Below are positions 9,910 through 46,922 of a stretch of DNA of 64,000 nt, piece by piece. Position numbers and translations under genes: made by a program. This stretch comes from Streptomyces sp. NRRL F-5727 (lineage in GTDB: Bacteria; Actinomycetota; Actinomycetes; Streptomycetales; Streptomycetaceae), in contig NZ_JOGX01000002.1 of assembly GCF_000719555.1 (NCBI RefSeq), forward strand, positions 1-64,000, written 5' to 3'. Position 1 is the first letter of the stretch. The number at the start of each line of letters is the position of its first letter. The notes under the pieces are model-generated. The model had not been told where the DNA came from. It was given only the letters and a program-made list of their open reading frames with translations, and did not search any database.

Positions 9910-10749
9910 TCAGCCGGCGCGCTCCGCGAGGGCGAGGACCCGGTGGGCGCCCGCCACCACCGCCGCGTCCACGAACCGGCCGTCCGCCAGGGCCAGCGCG
10001 CCCCGGTCGGCCGTGGCCGCCGCCACCACCTCGCGGGCCGCGTCGACCTCCTGCGCGGTCGGCAGATAGGCCCGCTCGATCACCGGGAGCTGCCGGGGGT
10101 GGATCGCGGCCCGGCCGAGGAAGCCGAGCGCCCGGCCCCGGGCGCAGCCGGCGGCGAGCGCGTCGAGGTCGGCGACGTCCGCGTGGACCGACTGGACCGG
10201 CGGCGGCAGCGCGGCCGCCCGGGCGGCGACCACGACCCGGCTGCGCGGCCAGTCGAGGCCGCTGTCGTCGCGCACCCCCAGGTCGGCCCGGAGGTCGGCC
10301 TCGCCGAGGGAGAGGCCGCGGACGGCCGGGTGGGCGGTGGCGATGGCGTACGCCTGCTCCACGGCCAGGGCGTTCTCCAGGAGCGGGTAGAGCGGGAGAC
10401 CGGGGGCGAGCTCGCTGATCCGGTGGATGTCAGTGGCGTGTGTCACCTTGGGGACACGGAGACCGCCGAGGCCGGGGAGGGAGGCCAGGACGGGGATGTC
10501 GCGCGGGGTGTGGATGCGGACGTGCACCGGGACGGGGTGGGCGTCGGAGAGCAGATCGACGGTGGCGTCGAGGGCGTACGCCTTGCGGTCCGGGGCGACC
10601 GCGTCCTCCAGGTCGACGATGACCACGTCGGCGCCGGAGCCGAGCGCCTTGCGGACCACGTCGGGGCGGTCGCCGGGGGCGTACAGCCAGGTGAGGGGGA
10701 GTCTGCGGCCCCGGTGCCGCAGGCCGTCCACGGCGCCCGGGGCGCTCAT
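9910..10749 (-). CDS. HpcH/HpaI-citrate lyase beta-like CoA ester lyase
   Basis: This 279-residue TIM-barrel protein is the last gene of the seven-gene minus-strand operon. 'LTWLYAPGDRPDVVRKAL' and 'GADVVIVDLEDAVAPDRK' carry the conserved acyl-CoA and Mg-binding residues of the CitE-like family. 'VRIHTPRD', 'LRVPKVTHATDI', 'PLLENALAV' and 'GLSLGEADLRADLG' follow in family order. The short form suggests a stand-alone lyase or thioesterase acting on a beta-hydroxy or malyl/citramalyl-type CoA ester rather than a citrate lyase complex subunit; no CitD/CitF is nearby. Its ATG overlaps the CaiB stop by 4 nt. The substrate is unknown; pairing with a CoA-transferase suggests activation of an organic acid, then C-C cleavage. 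Confidence 0.85.
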   Translation of the reverse strand: MSAPGAVDGLRHRGRRLPLTWLYAPGDRPDVVRKALGSGADVVIVDLEDAVAPDRKAYALDATVDLLSDAHPVPVHVRIHTPRDIPVLASLPGLGGLRVPKVTHATDIHRISELAPGLPLYPLLENALAVEQAYAIATAHPAVRGLSLGEADLRADLGVRDDSGLDWPRSRVVVAARAAALPPPVQSVHADVADLDALAAGCARGRALGFLGRAAIHPRQLPVIERAYLPTAQEVDAAREVVAAATADRGALALADGRFVDAAVVAGAHRVLALAERAG

Positions 10750-11981
10750 ACCGCCCCCTGGGCGCGCAGGGCGGCGATCTCGGCCGGGGTGAGGCCGGCC
10801 GCCGTCAGGACCTCGTCGGTGTCGGCGCCGTGCGGGCGGCCGGCCCAGCGGATGCCGCCCGGGGTCTCGGAGAGCCGGAAGAGCACGTTCTGCATCCGGA
10901 TCGGGCCGAGCTCCGGGTCGGGGACCTCGGTGACCGTGCCGAGCGCCTGGTACTGGGGGTCGGCGAGGACGTCCCGGACGTCGTAGACCGGGGCGATCGC
11001 CGCCTCCGCCTTCTCGAAGGCGGCCATGGCCTCGTCGCGGGTGTGGCGGGCGATCCACGAGCCGACCGCCTCGTCGAGGACGTCGGCGTGCGCGGCCCGG
11101 CCCGAGCCGTCGGCGAACCACGGCTCGTCGATCAGCTCGGCCCGGTCCACCAGGCGCATCACGCGTTCGGCGATGGACTGCGCCGAGGTGGAGACGGCCA
11201 CCCAGGAGCCGTCGGAGGTCCGGTAGGTGTTGCGGGGGGCGTTGTTGCGGGAGCGGTTGCCGGTGCGCGGCTGGACGTAGCCGAGCTGGTCGTACCAGAG
11301 GGGGTGGGGGCCGATGACGGAGAGCATCGGTTCGATGATGGCCATGTCCACGACCTGGCCGTGGCCGGTCGTCGTCCTCGCGGTGAGCGCGGTCATCACC
11401 GCGTACGCGGTGGCGAGGGCGGCGATCGAGTCGGCGAGGCCGAAGGGGGGCAGGGTCGGCGGCCCCTCCGGCTCGCCGGTGATGGCGGCGAAGCCGCTCA
11501 TCGCCTCGGCGAGGGTGCCGAAGCCGGGGCGGTGGGCGTACGGGCCGAACTGGCCGAAGCCGGTGACCCGGGCGAGGACGAGCCGGGGGTTGACCGTGGA
11601 CAGCTCCTCCCAGCCCAGACCCCAGCGTTCCAGGGTGCCCGGGCGGAAGTTCTCCACGATCACGTCGGCGTCGGCGGCCAGCCGGAGCAGGGCGTCCCGG
11701 CCGCCGGGGGTGGACAGGTCGAGGGTGACGGTCCGCTTGTTGCGGCCCAGGACCTTCCACCACAGGCCCACCCCGTCCTTGGCCGGGCCGTGGCCCCGGG
11801 ACGGGTCGGGCTTGCGGGGGTGCTCGACCTTCACGACGTCGGCGCCGAAGTCGCCGAGCATCATGGCGGCCAGCGGCCCGGCGAAGAGCGTCGCCAGATC
11901 GAGGACCCGCAGCCCCTGGAGCGGCGGGACCTTCGCGGCGGGGGGAGAGGCGGGGGCGGGGGGCGCGGTGGGGGTGGTCAT
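10746..11981 (-). CDS. CaiB/BaiF (family III) CoA-transferase
   Basis: The 411-residue enzyme moves CoA between acyl-CoA and a free carboxylic acid. The N-terminal 'LQGLRVLDLATLFAGPLAAMMLGDFGADVVKVE' region fits the family, and the catalytic aspartate that forms the aspartyl-CoA anhydride is D184 in 'PPFGLADSIAAL'. 'VIVENFRPGTLERWG', 'TGFGQFGPYAHRPGF' and 'NNAPRNTYRTSDGSW' are also family landmarks. Length and motifs are complete. It starts inside the ribokinase stop (11978-11981) and ends inside the CoA lyase start (10746-10749), so expression is tightly coupled on both sides. The substrate acid is not deducible. Confidence 0.92.
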   Translation of the reverse strand: MTTPTAPPAPASPPAAKVPPLQGLRVLDLATLFAGPLAAMMLGDFGADVVKVEHPRKPDPSRGHGPAKDGVGLWWKVLGRNKRTVTLDLSTPGGRDALLRLAADADVIVENFRPGTLERWGLGWEELSTVNPRLVLARVTGFGQFGPYAHRPGFGTLAEAMSGFAAITGEPEGPPTLPPFGLADSIAALATAYAVMTALTARTTTGHGQVVDMAIIEPMLSVIGPHPLWYDQLGYVQPRTGNRSRNNAPRNTYRTSDGSWVAVSTSAQSIAERVMRLVDRAELIDEPWFADGSGRAAHADVLDEAVGSWIARHTRDEAMAAFEKAEAAIAPVYDVRDVLADPQYQALGTVTEVPDPELGPIRMQNVLFRLSETPGGIRWAGRPHGADTDEVLTAAGLTPAEIAALRAQGAV

Positions 11982-12898
11982 ACGGGATCGGCCTCCAGGG
12001 ACTCGGGGGTGTCGAGGGCCGCGTCGATCTCGGTGCGGTACGGCATCGAGGTCGAGGCGCCCTCGCGCCGGACGGAGAGCGCGGCGGCCGTGCCGGCCCG
12101 GGTGAGGGCCTCCGGCATCGGCAGGCCCTCGGCGACCGCGACCGCGAGGGCGCCGACGAAGGTGTCGCCGGCGGCGGTGGTGTCGACGGCCCGCACCCGG
12201 GGGGCGGGCACGGTGAGCGGTTCCGCGCCGCGTGCCACGTAGAGGCAGCCGGCCGCGCCGAGGGTGACGACCACCTCGGGCACCGCGTCGAGGAGGGCGA
12301 GCGCGGCGGCGTGCGGGTCGGTGCGGCCGGTGAGCGCGACGGCCTCGTGCTCGTTGGGCACCAACAGGTCGGTGACGTCGAAGAGTTCGGGCGGCAGCGG
12401 CTGGGCCGGCGCCGGGGTGAGGACGGTGCGGACGCCGCGGTCGTGGGCGTGGGCGGCGCCCTCGACGACGACGGAGAGGGGGAGTTCGAGCTGGAGGAGG
12501 AGCAGCTGGGCGGAGGCGATCAGGGCCTCGTCGCCGGCGGTGAGGGAGGTGACGGTGGCGTTGGCGCCGGGGACGACGACGATCGCGTTGCCGCCCTCGT
12601 CGTCGACGACGATGTGCGCGGTGCCGGACGGGCCCTCGACGGTGCGGAGCAGGTCGGTGTCGACGGAGGAGTGCTCCAGGACGTCCCGGAGCCGGTAGCC
12701 GAAGTCGTCGGCGCCGACCGCGCCGATCAGGGCGACCTCGCCGCCCGCGCGGGCGGCGGCGACCGCCTGGTTGGCGCCCTTGCCGCCGGGGATCGTGCGG
12801 AACGCGCGGCCGGTGACGGTCTCGCCGCGTGCCGGGGCCTTCGCCACGTAGGCGACGAGGTCCATGTTGGTGCTCCCGAGCACCACGATGCTGGTCAT
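11978..12898 (-). CDS. rbsK: ribokinase (PfkB family)
   Basis: The 306-residue PfkB-fold sugar kinase has the ribokinase N-terminus 'VVLGSTNMDLVAYV', the substrate loop 'TIPGGKGANQAVAAARAGG', and the anion hole/catalytic base 'DTTAAGDTFVGAL'. 'TPAPAQPLPPELFDVTDLLV' followed by 'PNEHEA' is also ribokinase-like. The likely reaction is D-ribose + ATP to ribose-5-phosphate. It sits directly after four ADP-ribosylglycohydrolase-fold genes and overlaps the last by 4 nt, which suggests it captures ribose released by them. No ribose ABC transporter or LacI-type RbsR lies nearby. Confidence 0.93.
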   Translation of the reverse strand: MTSIVVLGSTNMDLVAYVAKAPARGETVTGRAFRTIPGGKGANQAVAAARAGGEVALIGAVGADDFGYRLRDVLEHSSVDTDLLRTVEGPSGTAHIVVDDEGGNAIVVVPGANATVTSLTAGDEALIASAQLLLLQLELPLSVVVEGAAHAHDRGVRTVLTPAPAQPLPPELFDVTDLLVPNEHEAVALTGRTDPHAAALALLDAVPEVVVTLGAAGCLYVARGAEPLTVPAPRVRAVDTTAAGDTFVGALAVAVAEGLPMPEALTRAGTAAALSVRREGASTSMPYRTEIDAALDTPESLEADPV

Positions 12899-14358
12899 GG
12901 GCGTACTGCCTCCAGGTGGGTCAGGTCGGCGAGGGTGTCGAAGCCGGTGCCGTCGAAGCCCGGCACCGAGGTGGCGAGCCGGTTCTTCAGGGGGGAGGTC
13001 CAGCGGTCCGGCAGCCGGGCCGGGTGGCCGGCGAGGAGGCCGGCGACCGAGCCGGCGGTGGCGCCGTTGGAGTCGGTGTCCCAGCCGCCGGAGACGGCCG
13101 CGCAGATCGAGCGGGTGAAGTCGCCGTCGGCGTGGGTGAGGGCGGCGGCGAGGAGCGCGGAGTTCGGCACGGCATGGACCCAGTGGTACCCGCCGTACCG
13201 GGCGTGCAGCCGGTCCACGACGGTGTCGAACGTGGGGGTGGCGCGGGCGGCGGCGATGCCGTACCGGACGGCCTCGGCGAGCCGGGAGCGGGGCGGGACG
13301 ACGGAGAGTCCGGCGGCGAGCGCCCGGTGGACGTCGGCGGTGCCGCCCGCGGCGGCGGCCACGGTGGCGGCGACGAACAGGGCGCCGTGGACGCCGCTGC
13401 CGGTGTGGCTGAGGACCGCGTCCCGGTGGGCCTGGGCGGCGGCCGCGGCGGGGTCGCCGGGGTGGGTCCAGCCGTGGACGTCGGCCCGGATCTGGGCGCC
13501 GATCCACTCCCGGAAGGGGTTGCGGCGGACGGCGGTCAGCGGTGGCTCGATCCCGTCCAGGAGGTTGCGGTAGGCGATCCGCTCGGCGGTGAAGGTGCGG
13601 CCGGCGGGGAGTTCGTCGAGCCAGAGGTGGGCCACGTCGGCGGTGGTGAAGCCGCGGCCGTGGCGGCGGAGGAGGAGCAGGGCGAGGAGGGGGTAGTTGA
13701 GGTCGTCGTCCTCGGGCATGCCGTCGATGGTCTCGGCGAGCGAGGTGGCGGCGGAGCGGCGGTTCCAGGGGTGGGCGGCCAGCAGCTCCGGCGGCACCCC
13801 GCGGGCGGTGAACCAGTCGTCGAGCGGCCAGTTCCCGGCGGCCCGGGCGAGCGCGCGGATCGCGTCGAGCGGCAGCTTCTCGACGGGCTTCCCGAGCAGG
13901 CACCCGGCGGCCCGCCCGAGCCAGGCGGCGTGCAGGCGGTCGCGGAGGGCCGGGTCCTCGGTGGCGCCGGGGAGCGGGGCGGGCCGGTCGGGGCAGGCGG
14001 CGGTGATCGCGTCGAGGCCGGTGGGTTCGTCGGGGGCGAGGGGCGAGGGGAGGGCGGCCAGCTCGTCGAGCAGCTCCTCGGCGAGCGGCCGCAGCTCGGG
14101 CCGGGGGACGGGCGAGGCGCCTGCGGCGGGCGGTGCGGGGTCCCCGCCGGCCGCGTACCAGCGCGCCGCGATCTCCCGCGCGTCCCGCCCGTCCTCGGCC
14201 GCCTGGCGCAGCTCGTGCCCGACGAGGTCCTCGGGCTGCACCCAGGTGAGGCGCACGGTGGCGGCCTCCGGCCGGCCCCCGGCCCGGACCTCGGCGCCCG
14301 ACGCCCCGGTTCTGGTGCCCGGGGGGTGGGCCGGGTGGCTGAGGGTGGTGTCCGTCAT
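12895..14358 (-). CDS. ADP-ribosylglycohydrolase family protein D (487 aa)
   Basis: This is the fourth ADP-ribosylglycohydrolase-fold gene of the operon. An N-terminal extension of about 150 residues ('VRLTWVQPEDLVGHELRQA', then a Pro/Ala-rich section) precedes the catalytic domain. The domain opens with 'RLHAAWLGRAAGCLLGKPVEKL' and has 'MPEDDDLNYPLLALLLL' (first metal-binding Asp cluster) and 'SGGWDTDSNGATAGSVAGLL' (second cluster D-T-D-S). The family hydrolyses ADP-ribose or other ribosyl linkages with two Mg ions in the cytoplasm. GKPVE replaces the usual GDALG. Its start lies within the stop of gene C and its stop within the ribokinase start. The substrate is unknown. Confidence 0.88.
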   Translation of the reverse strand: MTDTTLSHPAHPPGTRTGASGAEVRAGGRPEAATVRLTWVQPEDLVGHELRQAAEDGRDAREIAARWYAAGGDPAPPAAGASPVPRPELRPLAEELLDELAALPSPLAPDEPTGLDAITAACPDRPAPLPGATEDPALRDRLHAAWLGRAAGCLLGKPVEKLPLDAIRALARAAGNWPLDDWFTARGVPPELLAAHPWNRRSAATSLAETIDGMPEDDDLNYPLLALLLLRRHGRGFTTADVAHLWLDELPAGRTFTAERIAYRNLLDGIEPPLTAVRRNPFREWIGAQIRADVHGWTHPGDPAAAAAQAHRDAVLSHTGSGVHGALFVAATVAAAAGGTADVHRALAAGLSVVPPRSRLAEAVRYGIAAARATPTFDTVVDRLHARYGGYHWVHAVPNSALLAAALTHADGDFTRSICAAVSGGWDTDSNGATAGSVAGLLAGHPARLPDRWTSPLKNRLATSVPGFDGTGFDTLADLTHLEAVRP

Positions 14359-15506
14359 CGGGACGGGTCCGTGAGGGCGGCGCGGGCGGACTCGTGGGCG
14401 CGGCGGCGGGCGGTGTCGCGGGCGAAGACCTCGTGGGCGACGGCGGTCAGGGACCGCGCCGGGGCGTGCAGGTCGAGGCGGCTGGCCTCCGCCACCCGCT
14501 TCGCCCAGTCCGCGGGGACGGCCGCCTCGCCGTGCAGGGCGCCGGCGATCGCGCCCGCCATGGTGGCGATGGAGTCGCAGTCGCGGCCGTAGTTGACCGC
14601 GCCGAGGACCGTACGGCGGTAGTCGCCCTCGCCGACCAGGAGCATGCCGAGCGCGATCGGCAGTTCCTCGATGGAGTGGAGGCGGGAGGGGCGGCGGGCG
14701 CCGAGGCCGGGGTTGCGGTAGTCGGGGCCGACGGAGTCGTACGGGGCGACCGCCTTGCGGAGCGGTACGAGCGCGGTCTCGAAGTCGCGGTGCCGGTCGG
14801 CGACTTCGGCGACTGCCTCGATCGCGGCGCGGGTGCCGTCCTTGGCGAGGCCGAGGACGGTGTCGACGACCGTGCGCGGGCCGGCGCCGGGGACGCAGGC
14901 CGCCGCGACCGCCGCCGCGAAGACGCCCGCCGCCTCGCGGCCGTACGAGGACTGGTGGGCGCCCGCGACGTCGATCGCCTCGGCGTAGGCGCCGTCCGGG
15001 TCGGCCGCGTTGACCAGGCCGACCGGGGCCATGTACATCGCGGCGCCGCAGTTGACGATGTTTCCGGTGCCGGCCTCGCGGGGGTCGTGGTGCCCGTAGT
15101 GGAGGCGGGCGACGATCCACTTCTCGGCGAGGAAGATCCGCTGGAGGGGGAGGGCCTCCGCCTCCAGTTCGGGGATCCACACGGGGGTGCCCATGAGTTC
15201 GGGGACGAGGTGGTCCGCGACGGCGTACGCGTCGAGGTGGTCGCGGACCCTCTCGTACACCCGGATCAGCGCGTGGGTCATCAGGGTGTCGTCGGTGACG
15301 TGCCCGTCGCCCTTGTGATACGGGGCGATGGGGCGGGCGGTGCGCCAGGAGTCGCCGTTCCAGGGGCCGACGACGCCGGTGACGCGGCCGCCGTGGCGTT
15401 CGGCGATCTGCTCGGGGGTGTACCCCTCCACGGGGCCGCCGAGGGCGTCGCCCACGGCGGCACCGAGGAGACTTCCGGTGATCCGGTCATCCAGTGTGGG
15501 TGTCAT
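14355..15506 (-). CDS. ADP-ribosylglycohydrolase family protein C (383 aa)
   Basis: This is the most canonical member of the four. It has 'GSLLGAAVGDALGGPVEGY' at the N-terminus, 'GDGHVTDDTLMTHALIRVY' (first Asp pair) and 'NYGRDCDSIATMAGAIAGAL' (second Asp pair), spaced as in crystallin J1/ADP-ribosylglycohydrolase enzymes. An insertion with 'GTGNIVNCGAAMYMAPVGLV' lines the pocket. ATG 15506 is preferred: AGGTGG sits about 11 nt upstream, and the upstream gene overlaps by 20 nt. A GTG at 15521 would add five residues. All metal ligands expected for hydrolase activity are present, so this is probably an active ribosyl hydrolase. Confidence 0.9.
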   Translation of the reverse strand: MTPTLDDRITGSLLGAAVGDALGGPVEGYTPEQIAERHGGRVTGVVGPWNGDSWRTARPIAPYHKGDGHVTDDTLMTHALIRVYERVRDHLDAYAVADHLVPELMGTPVWIPELEAEALPLQRIFLAEKWIVARLHYGHHDPREAGTGNIVNCGAAMYMAPVGLVNAADPDGAYAEAIDVAGAHQSSYGREAAGVFAAAVAAACVPGAGPRTVVDTVLGLAKDGTRAAIEAVAEVADRHRDFETALVPLRKAVAPYDSVGPDYRNPGLGARRPSRLHSIEELPIALGMLLVGEGDYRRTVLGAVNYGRDCDSIATMAGAIAGALHGEAAVPADWAKRVAEASRLDLHAPARSLTAVAHEVFARDTARRRAHESARAALTDPSR

Positions 15507-17022
15507 GTCGGAATTGTCCACCTGGCGGGGCCGGTTCCGTGGTTCCCAGCAGCCCGGCGAGTTCCACCAGGTCCGTGCCGGCGAGCCGGGGGAGCGCGCA
15601 GCCGGACAGCGTCCGGCAGGCGTCCCGCCAGCTCGCCGGGACCGAACGGCCGCCGCCCAGCGCGCCGGTGAGCGCGCCGGCCAGGGCGGGCGCGGAGTCG
15701 GCGACCCGGGAGAGGCAGGCCGCGGCCGGGACCGCGGCCGTCATCGCGCCGCGCGCGGCGACGGTCAGCGCGAGGGCCACCGGGACGGTCTCGGCGGCGG
15801 CGATGCCGTAGCTGTAGACGTGGTCGACGATCTGGTGCTCCAGGAGCGGGACCAGTTCGAAGGCGGAGTCGGCGGTACGGGCCAGCTTCACGGCGTGCCG
15901 GGCGTTGCGGCCGATCTCGGTGACGGGCGGGAGTTCGGCGAGCGCGGCCTCGACGGCGGTGTCGGGGTCGGCGCCGCCGAGGGCCGCCGCGACGGCCGCC
16001 GCGGTGGCGCGGGCGCCGTGCACGCCGTCGCCGTCCTGGGTGTACCGGGCGTCGAACTCGGCGAGTTCGGCGGCGGCGCGCGGGTCGCCGGGGTGGACGA
16101 CGGCGAGGACCGCTGCCCGGACGCAGGCGGCGTCGTCGAAGTAGTGCGGGTTGTCGTGGCCGGTGGCGGGCGGGCGCAGACCGGTGGCCAGGTTGCCGAG
16201 GCCGGCCCGGACCGAGATCCGGGCGCGCAGCGGGAGGACGGCGGACTCGATCTCGGGGGCACGGTCGGCGGCCGCCGCGACCTGGCCCGCGAGGTGGTTC
16301 CAGGCGAGGTCGACGGCGGCGCGGAGGCGGCGCTCGCGGGGGAGGGCGGCGAAGAGCGGGCCGCCGGCGGCCAGGACCGCCTCCGCCGTGAAGGCCGCCC
16401 ACTCGGCGTCGTCGGAGGGGCCGAGGCGGAGGGGCTCGGGGGGCTGGTTCAGGGCGATGGGGACGGGGAGGGTGGTCGTCGCGTTCTGCTCCGCGAAGGT
16501 GTCGAGTTCGCGGGTGAGGCGGCGGGTCCACTCGGGCATGCGGGCGGCGCGGTGGCGTGCGGCGGGCCAGCCGGCGGCGTCGCCCGCGGCGAGGCCGAGG
16601 AGGAGGCCCTCGATCCTCTCGCGGTCCGCCCTGCGCGGCGGCGCGGACCGTGGGGCCTCCTGGGGCGCGCCCCAGGTCCCCGTGGCCTGTGGCGCGGGGG
16701 CCTGGGCGGCGGCGCGTGGTGCCGGGTCGGGGTCCAGCGGGGCGAGGAGCTGCGCGTCGGCGCCCGGCACGGGGGCCGGGTCCAGCGGGGTCAGGAGCTG
16801 CGCGTCGGCGCCCGGCACCGGGGGGAGGTCCAGCGGCGCGTCGGTCGCCGGAGCGGCGCCCGCCATCGGGGGCTGGGCCCACCCTCCCCCGGAGGGGGGA
16901 CCCCCACGCCCCGCGGAACGACGGCCCACGGCGGGTGCGGAACGGGTGTCGGCGGCCGGGGTGGCGGGGGCGGGCGAGCCGGCCGGGGGCGCCGGCTCGG
17001 TCGTGGTCAGGTCGGCGCTCAT
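15487..17022 (-). CDS. divergent ADP-ribosylglycohydrolase family protein B (511 aa)
   Basis: An N-terminal Pro/Ala-rich low-complexity region of about 130 residues contains tandem 16-residue units of the form LDPAPVPGADAQLLAP. The hydrolase-fold domain begins at 'IEGLLLGLAAGDAAGWPAARH'. The first Asp cluster is present ('LGPSDDAEWAAFTAEAVL'), but the C-terminal cluster reads 'CLSRVADSAPALAGALTGAL', where paralogues have GRDxDS or WDTDS. One of the two metal-binding Asp is therefore Val, and the site may be altered or inactive. Its start overlaps gene A by 4 nt. A regulatory or scaffold role beside the active paralogues is possible but is inference. Confidence 0.85.
   Translation of the reverse strand: MSADLTTTEPAPPAGSPAPATPAADTRSAPAVGRRSAGRGGPPSGGGWAQPPMAGAAPATDAPLDLPPVPGADAQLLTPLDPAPVPGADAQLLAPLDPDPAPRAAAQAPAPQATGTWGAPQEAPRSAPPRRADRERIEGLLLGLAAGDAAGWPAARHRAARMPEWTRRLTRELDTFAEQNATTTLPVPIALNQPPEPLRLGPSDDAEWAAFTAEAVLAAGGPLFAALPRERRLRAAVDLAWNHLAGQVAAAADRAPEIESAVLPLRARISVRAGLGNLATGLRPPATGHDNPHYFDDAACVRAAVLAVVHPGDPRAAAELAEFDARYTQDGDGVHGARATAAAVAAALGGADPDTAVEAALAELPPVTEIGRNARHAVKLARTADSAFELVPLLEHQIVDHVYSYGIAAAETVPVALALTVAARGAMTAAVPAAACLSRVADSAPALAGALTGALGGGRSVPASWRDACRTLSGCALPRLAGTDLVELAGLLGTTEPAPPGGQFRHDTHTG
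16732..16836 (-). repeat. 48-bp in-frame tandem repeat in protein B
   Basis: GTCCAGCGG recurs at 16732, 16780 and 16828, exactly 48 nt apart. The two intervening units are nearly identical and encode 16 residues each, so the repeat keeps the reading frame and lengthens the Pro-rich N-terminal linker. Confidence 0.85.
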
Positions 17023-18011
17023 CGGGGGTCCTCTTCGGTCAGGAGGTCGGCCACGTCCAGGACGTGGTAGCCGCGCATGGTGGGGAGGCAGCTGCCGGTC
17101 ACGGGGGTGATGGCGGTGGCCCACTCCTCGGGGATGGCGGTCAGGCCGCCCGCCGCGCCGGCCAGCGCGCCGGCCACCGCCGCCGTGGTGTCGGCGTCGC
17201 GGCCCATGTTCACGGCCGTCAGGACCGCCGTGCGGAAGTCGCCGCGGGCCGCCGCGAAGGCGCCGAAGGCGAGGCCGACGGCCTCCGGGGCCAGGTCGGT
17301 CCACGGGTAGCCGCCGATGACGACCGCCGAGCGGACCTGGCGTTCGCGGGTGAGCGGGTCCGGCTGGACGCGCTGCGCCGCGACCACCGCCCGCCGCAGC
17401 GAGCGGGCCGTCCAGGAGTCCATGGGGATCACCGAGAGGGCCGCCGCGATGACGGACGTGACGCCGGCGCCGGACATGGCCGCCGCGACGCCCGCCGCCA
17501 CCGCCTGGCCGCCGTAGATGCCCTCGCCCTCGTGGCTGACGCTGCCGTCGATGGCGACGAGCCGGGCCGCCTCCGCCGGGCGGCCGGCCGCGAAGACGCC
17601 GAAGGGCGCGGCCCGCATGGCCAGTCCGTCCGACCAGGCGTGCCGGTGCTGGGCGGAGATGGGGGCCGCCAGGCCCCGGCGGAGGTTCTCCAGGGTGCCG
17701 CGCTCGGAGAAGCCCGCGCCGCGGAAGGGGCCCTCGTCGAGGTCGGCGATCCAGCGGTGCCACGCCCGCTCGACGTGGGCGACGGTGAGCGCCGAGCCGT
17801 GCCGGGCGAGCAGCAGCGCCGAGAAGATCGCGTACTCGGTGTCGTCGGTGCCGGCCGGACGGTCCGTCAGGAAGCCCTCGATCCGCCCCCACCTGCGGCG
17901 GATCTCGGAGGGCTTCATGTTCTCGGCGGGGGCGCCGAGCGCGTCGCCGACGGCGAGGCCGAGCAGCGCCCCCCTCGCCCGTTCCCTGGTGTCGCATGTC
18001 GTGGTCACCAT
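17019..18011 (-). CDS. ADP-ribosylglycohydrolase family protein A (330 aa)
   Basis: This is the first gene of the seven-gene operon. A compact catalytic domain starts at once: 'ARGALLGLAVGDALGAPAEN', 'PAGTDDTEYAIFSALLLARHG' (first Asp pair), 'SVSHEGEGIYGGQAVAAGVA', and 'NMGRDADTTAAVAGALAGAAGG' (second Asp pair). All expected Mg ligands are present. The ATG at 18011 has GGAAGGGGCGCGGAG upstream, a strong ribosome site for the first gene of a coupled operon. The 278-nt gap to the divergent VIT gene must contain the operon promoter, but no convincing -35/-10 pair was recognised. The substrate is unknown; ADP-ribose conjugates or other ribosides are the family norm. Confidence 0.9.
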   Translation of the reverse strand: MVTTTCDTRERARGALLGLAVGDALGAPAENMKPSEIRRRWGRIEGFLTDRPAGTDDTEYAIFSALLLARHGSALTVAHVERAWHRWIADLDEGPFRGAGFSERGTLENLRRGLAAPISAQHRHAWSDGLAMRAAPFGVFAAGRPAEAARLVAIDGSVSHEGEGIYGGQAVAAGVAAAMSGAGVTSVIAAALSVIPMDSWTARSLRRAVVAAQRVQPDPLTRERQVRSAVVIGGYPWTDLAPEAVGLAFGAFAAARGDFRTAVLTAVNMGRDADTTAAVAGALAGAAGGLTAIPEEWATAITPVTGSCLPTMRGYHVLDVADLLTEEDPR

Positions 18012-18289
18012 CTCCGCGCCCCTTCCTCGGTGCCCGCACCTCTTCGGCGGTACCCCTTCGCCTGGATCTGTGCCACGACGGGCGGACGACTCGCCGGTGG
18101 ACGGCTTCTGTCACCCGTCTGTCAGTGGGGCGGCGGGGCATGACGGAAGGTCAGGGAAGGGTCACCACACTGAGGCGGGCCTTACTAAGTACGGCCTGCC
18201 TTGCTGGCGGGCCCCTTACATCGCGCGTATTTTCGAGGGTGTTGGGGGGCGGCGGGTACGACCCGGCCCGCCGGAACGAGGGGAGAGCC

Positions 18290-33724: not shown

Positions 33725-33749
33725 CCCGCGCCGTCAGCGACGGCGCGGG
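33725..33749. terminator. shared terminator of MFS and ankyrin-HEAT genes
   Basis: CCCGCGCCGTC (33725-33735), loop AGC, GACGGCGCGGG (33739-33749). It lies between convergent genes and overlaps the last codons of the minus-strand gene. Confidence 0.7.
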
Positions 33750-35203
33750 GGGATCCACTCCAGCCGGGTCCTGACCCGGGCGTCGCGCACGAACTCCAGG
33801 GCGGCCAGCGCCGTCTCGCGGGGCGCGCCGTCCGGGTCGCCGTCCGCCAGGACCGCCGCCAGCGCGTCCACCGCCCGCGGGTCCTGGCGGATCGCGAGCC
33901 CGCGGGCCGCCTCCGCCGCCGTCTCCGGATCGGGGTCGGCGAGCCGCTCCGCCAGCGCCTCCCGCACCAGCGGCGTGTCGTCCGGCAGTTCGGCGAGGGC
34001 CAGCACCGCCCAGTCCCGCACCCGCGCGTCCCCGTCCCGGCTCAGCGCGAGCAGCACCCCCAGCGCCTCCATGTCGCCGGCCGGTACGAGCCCCGCCAGC
34101 GCCCCCGCCGCCGCCCGCCGCACCTCCGGGTCCGGATGGGCCGCGGCGGCCAGCAGCTCCGGCACCGCGGCCGGTTCCGCGCAGGCCCCGAGCGCCGTCA
34201 CCGCCGACAGGAGCGGCTCCCGCGCCGGGCCCGCCGCCCCGGCCGCGAGCCGCCGCAGCACCGGCACCGCGCTCGCCGCGAACCCGGGCAGCGCGCCGAG
34301 GACCCGCGCGCCGAGCGCCCGCCGCAGCGGATCGCGGTCGGCGCACCAGCCGGCCGCCGCCACGAAGGTCTCCTCGTCGGCCCGCCCGGCGAGTTCGTCC
34401 ACCGCCGTCGTCCAGTCGTCGAGCTCCGGGTCCCCCTGCCGCAGCGCCCGCGCGGCCAGCTCCTCGGCCGGGGTGCGCCGCCCGAGCGCCGCCTCCAGGA
34501 GGGTCGCGACGGCCGCGTGCCCGGTCTGCCGCTCGTCCCCGCTGCCCGGCCGCCCGTCCTCCCGCAGCAGCTCGACGACGACGGTGATCCCGCCGTCCTC
34601 CCGTACCCGCCGCACCACGGCCTCGTACGTCTCCCCGCCCCCGTGCCCGGCGACGAGCCCACGCCGCAGCTCGGCCGCCACGTCCACCCCGATCCACCGC
34701 CGCGCCTCCCGCAGCGCCGCCTCGGCGCCCCGCGCGCCGCGGTCGAGCAGCGCCCGTACACAGGCGGTCGAGCCGCGCCGGGCGGCGGCGGTCAGCGGGG
34801 CGAGCCCGTCGGGGCCGGTCCGATCGGCGTCGGCGCCTGCCGCGAGCAGCGCGCGGACGACCTCCGCGTGCCCGAGCCGCACCGCCCAGGCGAGCGCGGT
34901 GAAGCCGAACTCCTCCTCCTGGTCGGGCGCGGCCCCCGCCGCGAGCAGCGCCCGCACGGTCCCCGCGTGCCCGCCGCAGGCCGCGCCGCAGAGCGGCAGG
35001 TCGCCGCCGTCCGCCCCGCTCGCCCGCCCGGGGTCGGCCCCGGCGGCGAGCAACAGCCGCACGATCCCCGGCTCGTCGGCGACGGCCGCGCGGTAGAGGG
35101 CGGTCTCCCCGTCGTCGGTGGCCTCGGGATCGGCCCCCGCCCGCAGGGCCCGGACGACCGCGTCCTCGTCCCCGCCCGCGATCGCGTCGAACAGCGTGCT
35201 CAT
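33734..35203 (-). CDS. ankyrin-repeat plus HEAT-repeat protein
   Basis: The 489-residue repeat protein has about four N-terminal ankyrin units ('GETALYRAAVADEPGIVRLL', 'FGFTALAWAVRLGHAEVVRA', 'DGLAPLTAAARRGSTACVRA', each with LLAAGAD-like turns; residues 1-150). After a linker come C-terminal HEAT/armadillo-type helices (residues 260-480: 'HPDPEVRRAAAGALAGL', 'DARVRDWAVLALAELPDD'). There is no signal peptide or catalytic motif. It is probably a cytosolic protein-binding scaffold. ATG 35203 is chosen; GGAGG abuts it, closer than usual, so the exact start is uncertain. Confidence 0.85.
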   Translation of the reverse strand: MSTLFDAIAGGDEDAVVRALRAGADPEATDDGETALYRAAVADEPGIVRLLLAAGADPGRASGADGGDLPLCGAACGGHAGTVRALLAAGAAPDQEEEFGFTALAWAVRLGHAEVVRALLAAGADADRTGPDGLAPLTAAARRGSTACVRALLDRGARGAEAALREARRWIGVDVAAELRRGLVAGHGGGETYEAVVRRVREDGGITVVVELLREDGRPGSGDERQTGHAAVATLLEAALGRRTPAEELAARALRQGDPELDDWTTAVDELAGRADEETFVAAAGWCADRDPLRRALGARVLGALPGFAASAVPVLRRLAAGAAGPAREPLLSAVTALGACAEPAAVPELLAAAAHPDPEVRRAAAGALAGLVPAGDMEALGVLLALSRDGDARVRDWAVLALAELPDDTPLVREALAERLADPDPETAAEAARGLAIRQDPRAVDALAAVLADGDPDGAPRETALAALEFVRDARVRTRLEWIPPRRR

Positions 35204-44076: not shown

Positions 44077-45513
44077 GTGACCGCGGTCGCCGGACAGGGC
44101 CCGGCGGCCCCCGGCACGCTGTCGTCCATGCGTGCCGCACCCCCGCCACCCCTCGCCGCCCAGCCCACCCCGCTCAGCCGCCTGCTCGGCATCGCCCTGG
44201 ACGCCCTGCGCACCGGCGCGGACGAACGGGGCGGACCGCTGCCGGCCGGCGGGCCCGCGGCGGTCACGGCACGCGTCCGCGACACCCTCGGGGACGTCCT
44301 CCCCGAGACCGGCACCGGACCGGACGAGGCCCTGCGCACCCTGGTCCACCTGGTCGCCGCCGGCGCCGCCGACCCCGCCCACCCGCTGTGCGCCGCCCAT
44401 CTGCACACCCCGCCGCTGGCCCTCGCCGCCGCCGCCGACCTGGCCGCCACCGCCCTCAACCCGTCCATGGACTCCTGGGACCAGGCGCCCTCCGCCTCCG
44501 CCCTGGAGGCGGAGGTCACCGCGGCCCTCGCCGCCGAGGTCTTCCCGCGCGCGAGCCGCCCCGACGCGCTCGTCACCACCGGCGGCACCGAGTCCAACCA
44601 GCTGGCCCTGCTCCTCGCCCGCGAACGGCACGGCCCCGCCCTCACCACCGTCGTCGGCGCCAACGCCCACCACTCCTTCCGCCGCGCCGCCTGGCTCCTC
44701 GGCCTCTCCGAACCGGTCACCGTCCCCACCCCCCGCGGCGTCCTCGACCCGGCGGCGGTCGCCCGCACCCTCGACGCCCTGGACGGGCCCGTCCTCCTCG
44801 CCGCCACGGCCGGCACCACCGAGGAGGGCCTGATCGACCCGCTGCCGGAGCTCGCCGACCTCTGCGCCGAGCACGGCGCCGAACTCCACGCCGACGCGGC
44901 CTACGGCGGCCCGGTCCTCCTCAGCCGCGCCCACCGGCACCTCCTGGCGGGCCTGGACCGGGCCCGCACCGTCACCCTCGACCTGCACAAGCTCGGCTGG
45001 CAGCCGGTCGCCGCCGGACTCCTCGCCGTCCGCGACCCCGGCGACCTCACCTCCCTCGGCCACACCGCCGCCTACCTCAACGCCGGCGACGACACCGAGG
45101 CCGGCCTCCCCGACCTCCTCGGCCGCTCCCTGCGCACCACCCGCCGCCCCGACGTCCTCAAGGCCGCCGTCACCCTGCGCGCCCTCGGCCGCTCCGGACT
45201 CGGCGCCCTGGTGGACCTCTGCATGGAACGCGCCCAGGACCTCGCCGACCTGGTGGAGAAGGCCCCGGGCCTGGAGCTGCGCGACCGGCCCGTCCTCACC
45301 ACCGTCCTGCTCCGGCCTGCCGGCGCCGACGACGCCCGGGTGGCCCGGGTCCGGCGCACCCTCCTCGCCGGCGGCCGGGCCGTCCTCGGCCGTGCCGAGG
45401 CCGACGGCCGGCTGTGGCTGAAGGCCACCCTGCTCAACCCCCACACCACCCCCGACGACCTGGCCCAGCTCATCTCCCTCGTGGAACTCGCGGAAGGCGA
45501 CACCGACCGATGA
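44077..45513 (+). CDS. PLP-dependent group II decarboxylase (DABA/lysine decarboxylase type)
   Basis: The 478-residue fold-type I PLP enzyme has the substrate region 'ALNPSMDSWDQAPSASALEA', the cofactor segment 'VTTGGTESNQLALLLARE', 'ELHADAAYGGPVLLS', and the Schiff-base Lys in 'VTLDLHKLGWQPVAAGLL'. The D-x-HK-x3-QP form is typical of diaminobutyrate/lysine-type decarboxylases such as DesA rather than aromatic ones. GTG 44077 keeps a codon-biased N-terminus; an ATG at 44128 would give 461 residues. It is coupled to an N-hydroxylase by a 4-nt overlap. A diamine product (cadaverine or putrescine) is the likely substrate of that partner. No iron box is seen upstream. Confidence 0.85.
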   Translation: MTAVAGQGPAAPGTLSSMRAAPPPPLAAQPTPLSRLLGIALDALRTGADERGGPLPAGGPAAVTARVRDTLGDVLPETGTGPDEALRTLVHLVAAGAADPAHPLCAAHLHTPPLALAAAADLAATALNPSMDSWDQAPSASALEAEVTAALAAEVFPRASRPDALVTTGGTESNQLALLLARERHGPALTTVVGANAHHSFRRAAWLLGLSEPVTVPTPRGVLDPAAVARTLDALDGPVLLAATAGTTEEGLIDPLPELADLCAEHGAELHADAAYGGPVLLSRAHRHLLAGLDRARTVTLDLHKLGWQPVAAGLLAVRDPGDLTSLGHTAAYLNAGDDTEAGLPDLLGRSLRTTRRPDVLKAAVTLRALGRSGLGALVDLCMERAQDLADLVEKAPGLELRDRPVLTTVLLRPAGADDARVARVRRTLLAGGRAVLGRAEADGRLWLKATLLNPHTTPDDLAQLISLVELAEGDTDR

Positions 45514-46922
45514 CCGGCAGCACCCCCCAGCAGGACCTCGACCGCCCGCACGATCTGGTGGGCGTCGGCATCGGCCCGTTCAACCTCTCGCTCGCCGCCC
45601 TCGCCGACGGCGTCCCCGGCGGGCTCGCCGCGACCTTCTTCGAGCAGCGTCCCGCCTTCCACTGGCACCCGGGCCTCCTCATCGAGGGCGCCACCCTCCA
45701 GGTGCCCTTCCTGGCCGACCTGGTCACCCTCGCCGACCCGGCCAGCCCCTGGTCCTTCCTCAGCTACCTGCGCAGCCGCGAGCGGCTCTTCCCCTTCTAC
45801 TTCGCCGAGAAGTTCCACATCCAGCGCGCCGAGTACGACGCCTACTGCCGCTGGGTCAGCGAGCGGCTGCCCGGCCTGCACTTCGGCCACCAGGTCGACT
45901 CGGTCCGCTGGAACCCCGAACGGAAGCTGTTCGAGGTCGACTTCACCCAGCTCGACCAGGACGGCGAGGCCGCCGCCCTCGGCCGCGCCTACACCCGGAA
46001 CGTGGTCCTCGGCGTGGGCACCGAGCCGTACGTCCCCGAGCCGCTGCGCCCGCTCGCCGACGCCCCCGGCGTCCCGGTGATCCACTCCGCCGACTACCTC
46101 GCCCACCGCGAGACGCTGCTGCGCGCCGGGCACGTCACCGTCATCGGCTCCGGCCAGTCCGGCGCCGAGGTCTTCCTCGACCTGCTCCGGGCCCGCCCGG
46201 CCGGCGCCGAGCGGATCAGCTGGCTCTCCCGCACCGAGGCGTTCGCGCCCATGGAGTACTCGAAGCTGGGCCTGGAGCACTTCACGCCCGACTACACCCG
46301 CTACTTCCACGCCCTCCCGGAGCCCGTCCGGGGCGAACTGATGCCCCGCCAGTGGCAGTTGCACAAGGGCATCGACGCGGACACCATCGCCGCCATCCAC
46401 GACGAGCTCTACCGCCGCACCCTGCACGGCGGCTGGCCGGACGCCGTCCTCACCCCGGGGGTCCGGGTCCGCACGGCGGGCCGGGTCGCCACCACCCAGG
46501 TCGAGCTGCACCTGGAACACGTCCAGCAGGGCAGCCGCTCCCGGCTCACCACCGACGCCGTCGTCCTCGCCACCGGCTACCGGGAGCGCCCGGTCGACCG
46601 GATGCTGGCCGGCCTCGACCCCTATCTGCGGCACGACTCGGCGGGCCGGGCGAAGATCGACGAGCGGTACCGGCTGGTCCTCGACCCGTCGGTGACCGGC
46701 TCGGTGTACGTGCAGAACGCGGAGCGCCACACCCACGGCGTGGGCGCCCCCGACCTGGGGCTGGCCGCCTGGCGCAGCGCGGTCATCCTCAACGCGGTCA
46801 CCGGGAAGGAGCCGTACCCGCTGCCGCGCCGGACCGCCTTCACCAGCTTCGGCCTGGACGCGCGAGAGGCGCCGAGCATCCCGTCCCAGGACCGGAAGCT
46901 GACGCCTCTCGTGGAGCACTGA
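45510..46922 (+). CDS. L-lysine/L-ornithine/diamine N-hydroxylase
   Basis: The 470-residue flavin monooxygenase hydroxylates a terminal amine. The FAD motif is 'LVGVGIGPFNLSLAALADGV', the substrate region 'PGLLIEGATLQVPFLADLVT' (LQ...FLADLVTL is the lysine-hydroxylase version), the NADPH motif 'VTVIGSGQSGAEVFLDLL', and the C-terminal 'VVLATGYRERPVDRML' and 'QNAERHTHGVGAPDLG' follow. It belongs to the IucD/DesB/SidA group. The usual siderophore partners, an acyl-CoA N-acyltransferase and an IucA/IucC synthetase, are absent. The ATG overlaps the decarboxylase stop (ATGA). Confidence 0.92.
   Translation: MTGSTPQQDLDRPHDLVGVGIGPFNLSLAALADGVPGGLAATFFEQRPAFHWHPGLLIEGATLQVPFLADLVTLADPASPWSFLSYLRSRERLFPFYFAEKFHIQRAEYDAYCRWVSERLPGLHFGHQVDSVRWNPERKLFEVDFTQLDQDGEAAALGRAYTRNVVLGVGTEPYVPEPLRPLADAPGVPVIHSADYLAHRETLLRAGHVTVIGSGQSGAEVFLDLLRARPAGAERISWLSRTEAFAPMEYSKLGLEHFTPDYTRYFHALPEPVRGELMPRQWQLHKGIDADTIAAIHDELYRRTLHGGWPDAVLTPGVRVRTAGRVATTQVELHLEHVQQGSRSRLTTDAVVLATGYRERPVDRMLAGLDPYLRHDSAGRAKIDERYRLVLDPSVTGSVYVQNAERHTHGVGAPDLGLAAWRSAVILNAVTGKEPYPLPRRTAFTSFGLDAREAPSIPSQDRKLTPLVEH

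Follow-up and report, generated by a model that had tools for sequence, protein, structure and literature searches.

Why should a streptomycete carry four paralogous ADP-ribosylglycohydrolase (ARH)-fold proteins in a single operon with a ribokinase, a coenzyme A (CoA)-transferase and a CoA lyase? The question is raised by a seven-gene operon of Streptomyces sp. NRRL F-5727, located on the minus strand, from 18011 down to 9910, of the 64,000-nucleotide stretch analyzed here (contig NZ_JOGX01000002.1, positions 1 to 64,000; hereafter the window). Comparison with related genomes indicated that the operon is probably the catabolic half of a system with which actinobacteria use glycosides under LacI control. 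The version of this proposal that specifies ribose and a beta-hydroxy acid in detail has well under an even chance of being correct. The genes are lettered A to G, A being the first gene:

17019..18011, minus strand: A, ARH-fold hydrolase, 330 residues (Pfam PF03747, E 5e-61)
15487..17022, minus strand: B, ARH-fold paralogue, 511 residues, with a long, variable N-terminus (PF03747, E 7e-35)
14355..15506, minus strand: C, ARH-fold hydrolase, 383 residues (PF03747, E 2e-54)
12895..14358, minus strand: D, ARH-fold hydrolase, 487 residues, with an additional N-terminal helical region of about 100 residues (PF03747, E 1e-46)
11978..12898, minus strand: E, ribokinase, 306 residues (Pfam PfkB; TIGR02152)
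10746..11981, minus strand: F, class III (CaiB/BaiF) CoA-transferase, 411 residues (CoA_transf_3 PF02515, E 4e-125)
9910..10749, minus strand: G, CitE-like acyl-CoA lyase, 279 residues (HpcH_HpaI PF03328, E 2e-21)
18012..18120, minus strand: upstream region of A, facing a divergent VIT1-family gene and lacking a LacI-type operator

The reading frame starts were picked by frame and overlap and are unproven. Read base by base, the junctions were as the initial annotation had described them, with five 4-nucleotide overlaps (A/B, C/D, D/E, E/F and F/G, each an ATGA) and one of about 20 nucleotides (B/C, 20).

The distribution of the operon was followed through gene D. Of 119 genomes from the order, 83 had a match at 1e-30 and 78 one better than 1e-100; of 394 from the class, 68 had a match at 1e-50. 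Neighbourhoods were compared at 40 places, in stretches no longer than 20 kb, and at 80 named loci (the best 80 of 530 confirmed relatives). Sixty-one of the named loci had at least 8.3 kb on either side of D and form the full-flank set; the other 19 lacked sufficient sequence on one flank and do not enter the counts. Genes were called with our own script, which uses guanine plus cytosine (GC) content by codon position and labelled no gene in three low-GC loci (L107-L109); these were read by tblastn, are cut by contig ends and lie outside the 61.

In these relatives the operon is larger than in the window. The gene order is LacI, permease, permease, binding protein, [A, B], C, D, E, [amylase-like/FGE], F, G, where brackets mark genes present in only some loci, and the core was collinear in 60 of the 61 full-flank loci. 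Each permease and the binding protein were found in all 61, LacI and C in 60 each, and E and the F-G pair in 55 each. Pfam recognised SBP_bac_1, BPD_transp_1 and LacI on one relative's locus and SBP_bac_1 on a second. The operon genes co-occurred in a single operon across more than 30 named actinobacterial genera, which is the outcome that the genome-neighbourhood check proposed in the initial annotation had been designed to look for. The same annotation had stated that the operon holds no transporter or regulator; this is true of the window, but the relatives' operon is headed by a LacI regulator and a sugar ATP-binding cassette (ABC) importer. Linkage to uptake and regulation is thus well supported by genomic context. 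The nearest solved relatives of the binding protein are mostly named as sugar or oligosaccharide binders; these PDB relatives, mostly general binders, did not identify the substrate. Esterase genes of the PF00756 type recurred beside the operon in 22 of 79 loci by clustering, with Pfam checked for three.

An operator-like sequence accompanied the regulator. The word AAACGTTT, with at most one mismatch, preceded the LacI gene in 69 of 70 loci, mostly within the palindrome GGAAACGTTTCC or GTAAACGTTTAC and at a median of 90 nucleotides ahead of the called LacI start. GGAAACGTTTCC with up to two mismatches was present in 66 of the 70 loci; ten shuffled words gave 0-2, except for two GC-rich ones (39 and 8). 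Of 12 Streptomyces genomes searched for LacI, G084 and G087 alone have an orthologue, at 61% identity, the matches in the others not exceeding 43%; these two retain the whole operon with LacI and operator. G082, the closest relative of the window found, has a perfect GAAACGTTTC 69 nucleotides upstream of its A. The operator position weight matrix gave one match of at least 11 in L087 and none in the window, L088-L093 or L097-L101; GGAAACGTTTCC with up to three mismatches was rarer than chance in the window (5 vs. 13.6).

Within Streptomyces the system is split: in most examined relatives within the genus the importer is elsewhere and a LacI orthologue was not found. In four other genomes (L097-L100) a second locus, lacking LacI, holds the permeases along with the binding protein, and a fifth (L101) keeps part of the binding protein. 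Across the 119 genomes, which span five genera, scored as present when better than 1e-100 for D and 1e-60 for the binding protein, the two genes occurred together in 60, D only in 18, the binding protein only in 2 and neither in 39 (Fisher p 4e-15). When the comparison was restricted to the 103 genomes listed as Streptomyces the counts were 60, 18, 2 and 23 (p 7e-10, relatedness ignored). G084 and G087 were the only genomes in which no more than 10 kb separated the two genes. G039, one of the two genomes with the binding protein only, has a D fragment; short D fragments of 72-84% identity were seen in G039, G046 and G105, which have no full D orthologue, and suggest recent operon decay or contig ends.

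The enzymes of the operon were compared with known families. All four ARH-fold proteins exceeded the PF03747 curated cut-off of 26.2 bits, and they account for four of the ten PF03747 matches in the 7.9-Mb window genome, six being elsewhere. The metal motifs of A (TDDTE and GRDADT) are intact, with DxD present in 23 of 23 sequences, and its nearest solved relative is DraG (2woe). The motifs of C (TDDTL and GRDxDS) are likewise intact, with the motif Asp residues in 78 of 78 sequences, and D, which has the ARH3 fold and metal motif, keeps both acidic motifs in 79 of 79. In B the first Asp of the DxD metal motif is gone in all 25 sequences and the second in 4 of them. A and B occurred together in all 14 full-flank loci having either gene, and B is a probable degenerate-site partner of A. 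The initial annotation of four distinct hydrolases was only partly right because the metal site of B is degenerate: there are four PF03747 genes, but they are not equivalent. The N-terminus of B is long and variable in Streptomyces, an extension missing from the aligned B proteins of other genera. None of A-D matched DraG proper (best TIGR02662 score 78.5 bits vs. a cut-off of 337.05), and their scores were nowhere near the DraG or Tri1 equivalog cut-offs. The four share their fold and metal motifs with DraG, ARH1 and ARH3 and differ from them in operon context, in the additional N-terminal region of D and in the degenerate B. The Pfam scan of the seven operon proteins revealed no ADP-ribosyltransferase domain, as had been noted at the outset, and with it no sign of an ADP-ribosyltransferase/ARH toxin-immunity module.

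Several D-like genes were observed in other settings. A paralogue in the window genome (L077:7740-10502, G000:C6), 50% identical to D, overlaps a Nudix gene by 4 nucleotides and adjoins a Sir2 gene (Pfam), and another D-like gene (L094:9253-13634, G022) is near Nudix and macro domains (Pfam). For others (L074, L078, L079 and L080) the neighbours, mostly named by eye, are sugar genes of LacI and ABC type, a ribokinase gene or a gene for an inosine-uridine hydrolase. The D family thus suits ADP-ribose metabolism where Nudix, Sir2 or macro-domain genes adjoin it and, judged from the present evidence, sugar catabolism in the setting of the operon.

A and B are exchanged for an alpha-amylase-like gene with an FGE-type domain. 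Twelve full-flank loci had A and B only, 47 the amylase-like gene only, two had both and none had neither. An earlier gene-finder count, over 74 loci in which C, D and the binding protein all occur (some of them cut by contig ends), gave 19, 51, 3 and 1, respectively. Both states were found inside Microbacterium (L117, L130 and L179 vs. L183 and L185), and six Streptomyces genomes were searched for the amylase-like gene without a find.

The product of E, first annotated as a ribokinase, is one by sequence: it scored above the ribokinase equivalog cut-off (TIGR02152, 306.2 vs. 299.65 bits) and gave 219.7 bits against the solved ribokinase 6znx, although it fell below the cut-off of a second ribokinase model (PRK11142, 269.1 vs. 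341). In one locus (L068:2648-5638) the ribokinase and the amylase-like/FGE protein are fused in a single 996-residue frame.

The initial annotation also proposed that the CaiB-type transferase and CitE-like lyase process an acid as a CoA ester, and the families to which F and G belong are consistent with acid activation and cleavage. The nearest solved relatives of F are 4ed9 (a CaiB/BaiF family protein), the formyl-CoA transferase 10uh and the succinate-hydroxymethylglutarate CoA-transferase 9br7. Its presumed active-site residue, D184, was present in 65 of 66 sequences, the remaining one having a gap. G is closest to the acyl-CoA lyases 9nzb, 8khl, 3qll and 1z6k, of which we take 3qll to be Yersinia RipC and 1z6k to be Mycobacterium Rv2498c. 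E125 and D152, the metal ligands of this family, were kept in 66 of 66 sequences. A CoA-transferase paired with a CitE-type lyase is also found in the itaconate/citramalate CoA pathway (RipC-type lyase; succinyl-CoA-dependent CoA-transferases), but G is not recognised as a RipC citramalyl-CoA lyase by the equivalog model, its NF038242 score of 126.3 bits being far below the cut-off of 375. A further difference from that pathway is that no hydratase recurred beside F and G among the 14 commonest neighbour families, which were named by eye; our guess is that the acid should then already carry a beta-hydroxyl.

Taken with the linkage to importer and regulator, these observations suggest a working scheme, in which gene families, operon conservation, the operator, the exchange of A and B and the loss of a metal ligand in B come from sequence and context, and from which we infer the substrate, the order of steps, ribose as a product and the acid as aglycone. 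A CUT1-type ABC importer would bring in a small riboside-like conjugate, which the esterase found beside the operon in some genomes, with its secreted-looking N-terminus, could free first. Inside the cell the ARH-fold enzymes would act as metal-dependent glycosidases and not as protein ADP-ribosyl hydrolases. A and its degenerate partner B may make one cut, with the amylase-like protein taking their place in other genomes, and C and D may make other cuts. E would phosphorylate ribose or a close furanose. The remaining acid, predicted to be already beta-hydroxylated (of the malate, citramalate or hydroxymethylglutarate type), would be turned into its CoA ester by F and split by G to acetyl-CoA and a 2-oxo or 3-oxo acid. 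It is possible, and we propose it tentatively, that these genes represent a widespread and unrecognised actinobacterial pathway for import and breakdown of ribosyl conjugates of a beta-hydroxy dicarboxylic acid, with ARH-fold proteins as intracellular ribosidases, one of them an active/degenerate heteromer replaceable by an alpha-amylase-like glycosidase. Methanopterin, cobamides, aminoglycosides, apiosides and hydroxymethylglutaryl glycosides were set aside as substrate ideas.

A number of observations weigh against a LacI-controlled glycoside pathway or parts of it. In the window genome, one of the 18 with D only, neither a LacI orthologue nor a cognate binding protein was found (best matches 39 and 27% identical; the permeases were not searched for), which means that expression of its enzymes and their supply with substrate must be achieved otherwise; an assembly gap is possible but unlikely because the assembly has 187 contigs and an estimated completeness of 99.99%. 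The pairing of importer and LacI that marks a LacI/CUT1 sugar-catabolic operon is absent from the window operon itself. Purifying selection nonetheless acts on its genes, an observation not accounted for by a pathway of uptake alone: the ratios of nonsynonymous to synonymous substitution rates (dN/dS) against G082 were 0.14-0.33 for all seven, from a dS lowered by GC-rich third positions, and the differences were mainly silent. E is missing from 6 of the 61 loci and from L091 and L092 within Streptomyces, so a dedicated kinase is not obligatory. F and G are both missing from six of the 61, those of five Nonomuraea and Nocardiopsis coralli. In the five Nonomuraea genomes F and G have likely orthologues (64-67% and 51-56% identity, respectively) that adjoin each other elsewhere, by a GntR-type gene, so the acid step may be separate; in Nocardiopsis coralli the F-like genes were all distant and no G passed the cut-off. 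The F-G pair is therefore a two-gene acid module that is usually, but not always, part of the operon. Some of the D family fits ADP-ribose metabolism, since the D-like paralogue adjoins Nudix and Sir2 genes. In addition, all loci were fetched through the D gene and their counts are not phylogenetically independent. The only activity, ligand or expression data found for these genes are two negative assays on the presumed S. coelicolor counterparts SCO2028 and SCO2030, in the sections of PMC13036486 that deal with them.

The separate F-G pairs of Nonomuraea (L196-L200) lie away from the ARH operon with a divergent GntR-type gene, assigned to GntR/FCD by Pfam in L197 and by eye in the other four. 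CUT2-type ABC genes were within the stretch in four of the five (by eye), and no further enzyme recurred at these five loci, so they give no substrate clue.

Other explanations account for parts of the same evidence. To our knowledge, the characterised ARH-fold hydrolases act on ribosyl bonds, and this, together with the score of E above the ribokinase equivalog cut-off, argues against a glycoside pathway whose sugar is not ribose, in which the ARH-fold enzymes would cut another furanoside or a hexoside and E would be a relaxed or re-specialised PfkB kinase. That the protein replacing A and B is alpha-amylase-like, that E is missing from 6 of the 61 loci and that PF00756-type esterases stand beside the operon, as in plant polymer use, are all consistent with such a pathway, and we regard it as unlikely while taking it seriously. 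If A-D were instead true ADP-ribosylhydrolases acting on proteins, nucleic acids or small molecules, E, F and G would be incidental operon partners. The ARH3 fold and metal motif of D, the D-like paralogue with its Nudix and Sir2 neighbours and the listing of the S. coelicolor counterparts as putative ADP-ribosyl hydrolases in the pertinent text of PMC5087735 and PMC9411070 are in keeping with that role. The presence of a LacI gene in 60 of the 61 full-flank loci and of a sugar importer in every one, and the absence by Pfam of an ADP-ribosyltransferase among the seven proteins, make it improbable, and the activity of SCO2028 and SCO2030 on uracil-linked ADP-ribose, the single substrate concerned, was undetectable according to the relevant part of PMC13036486.

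Salvage of nucleosides or of fragments of nicotinamide adenine dinucleotide would assign E its expected role: ribosyl nicotinate, modified nucleosides or ADP-ribose would be imported or made inside the cell, and F and G would handle an unrelated acid. The D-like paralogue cluster L080 holds an inosine-uridine hydrolase gene, and in E. coli, according to the portion of PMC10819704 covering them, YegU-YegV are accompanied by a transporter of nucleoside type and by a regulator for which sensing of ADP-glucose has been reported. We find salvage improbable as well, given that the binding protein is of the SBP_bac_1 type, with mostly sugar or oligosaccharide binders as its nearest solved relatives, and that 55 of 61 loci have F and G within the stretch. 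A glycoside-utilisation system remains our preferred reading of the operon.

Among the literature found, yegTUV appears to be the nearest described arrangement. E. coli yegTUV and its repressor GgaR (YegW), covered in passages of PMC10819704, share with the actinobacterial operon an ARH-fold gene, a PfkB-type kinase, a transporter, an overlapping operon and a dedicated repressor; that paper calls the functions of the yegTUV genes unclear. yegTUV differs in having one ARH gene, another transporter type and a GntR-family repressor, and genes for a CoA-transferase, a lyase and an ABC importer are missing from it. Over its length YegU shares 25% identity with C, and YegV shares 22% with E; a yegTUV-like set (ARH, PfkB, transporter and repressor) was present in relatives with other transporter and repressor types and weak sequence similarity. 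The ribose-utilisation (rus) locus of Bacteroides thetaiotaomicron, around BT2804, similarly has a ribokinase, an ARH-fold gene and a nucleoside hydrolase by sugar-uptake genes; it differs in its Bacteroidota outer-membrane uptake and is not known to carry the CoA-transferase/CitE or A-B pairs. Its ribokinase, TonB-dependent receptor, SusD-type protein and nucleoside hydrolase are named in the excerpted text of PMC10434189. In the literature searched, which left most subscription journals outside it, neither the set of seven genes nor a connection of this set with a sugar importer was described.

The S. coelicolor genes SCO2028-SCO2031 are presumably A-D, an assignment that we base on gene order and locus numbering. 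All four are listed as uncharacterised DraG/ARH homologues in a passage of PMC9411070, and three of the four in one of PMC5087735; both papers, in those passages on Streptomyces ADP-ribosylation, count the genes in an unusually rich ADP-ribosyl hydrolase set. PMC5036795, in its available text, names SCO2028 only in a passage on trpM cloning, apparently as a slip for SCO2038. The sugar-catabolic context redirects the search for substrates of genes counted in that set, and if the ribosyl-conjugate pathway that we tentatively propose is true, four of the eight DraG/ARH-type 'ADP-ribosyl hydrolases' of S. coelicolor would not serve ADP-ribosylation. The operon also provides an ARH-fold glycosidase family with a natural test system, namely the binding protein, the effector of LacI and the bound ligand, and points to a common environmental nutrient that keeps a ten- to twelve-gene system in more than 30 named actinobacterial genera.

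In the window the operon is flanked by lgt and trp genes on one side and by the VIT1-family gene and gltB on the other (VIT1 from Pfam; lgt, trp and glt assigned by eye). Elsewhere in the window (44077-46922) a pyridoxal phosphate-dependent decarboxylase gene overlaps a lysine/ornithine N-monooxygenase gene by 4 nucleotides, a hydroxamate siderophore-like pair by Pfam. The next gene, on the opposite strand, is 5'-nucleotidase-like with a twin-arginine translocation signal, and no synthetase was seen beside the pair by eye. The window also encodes a 489-residue protein with ankyrin and HEAT repeats (33734-35203; Pfam).

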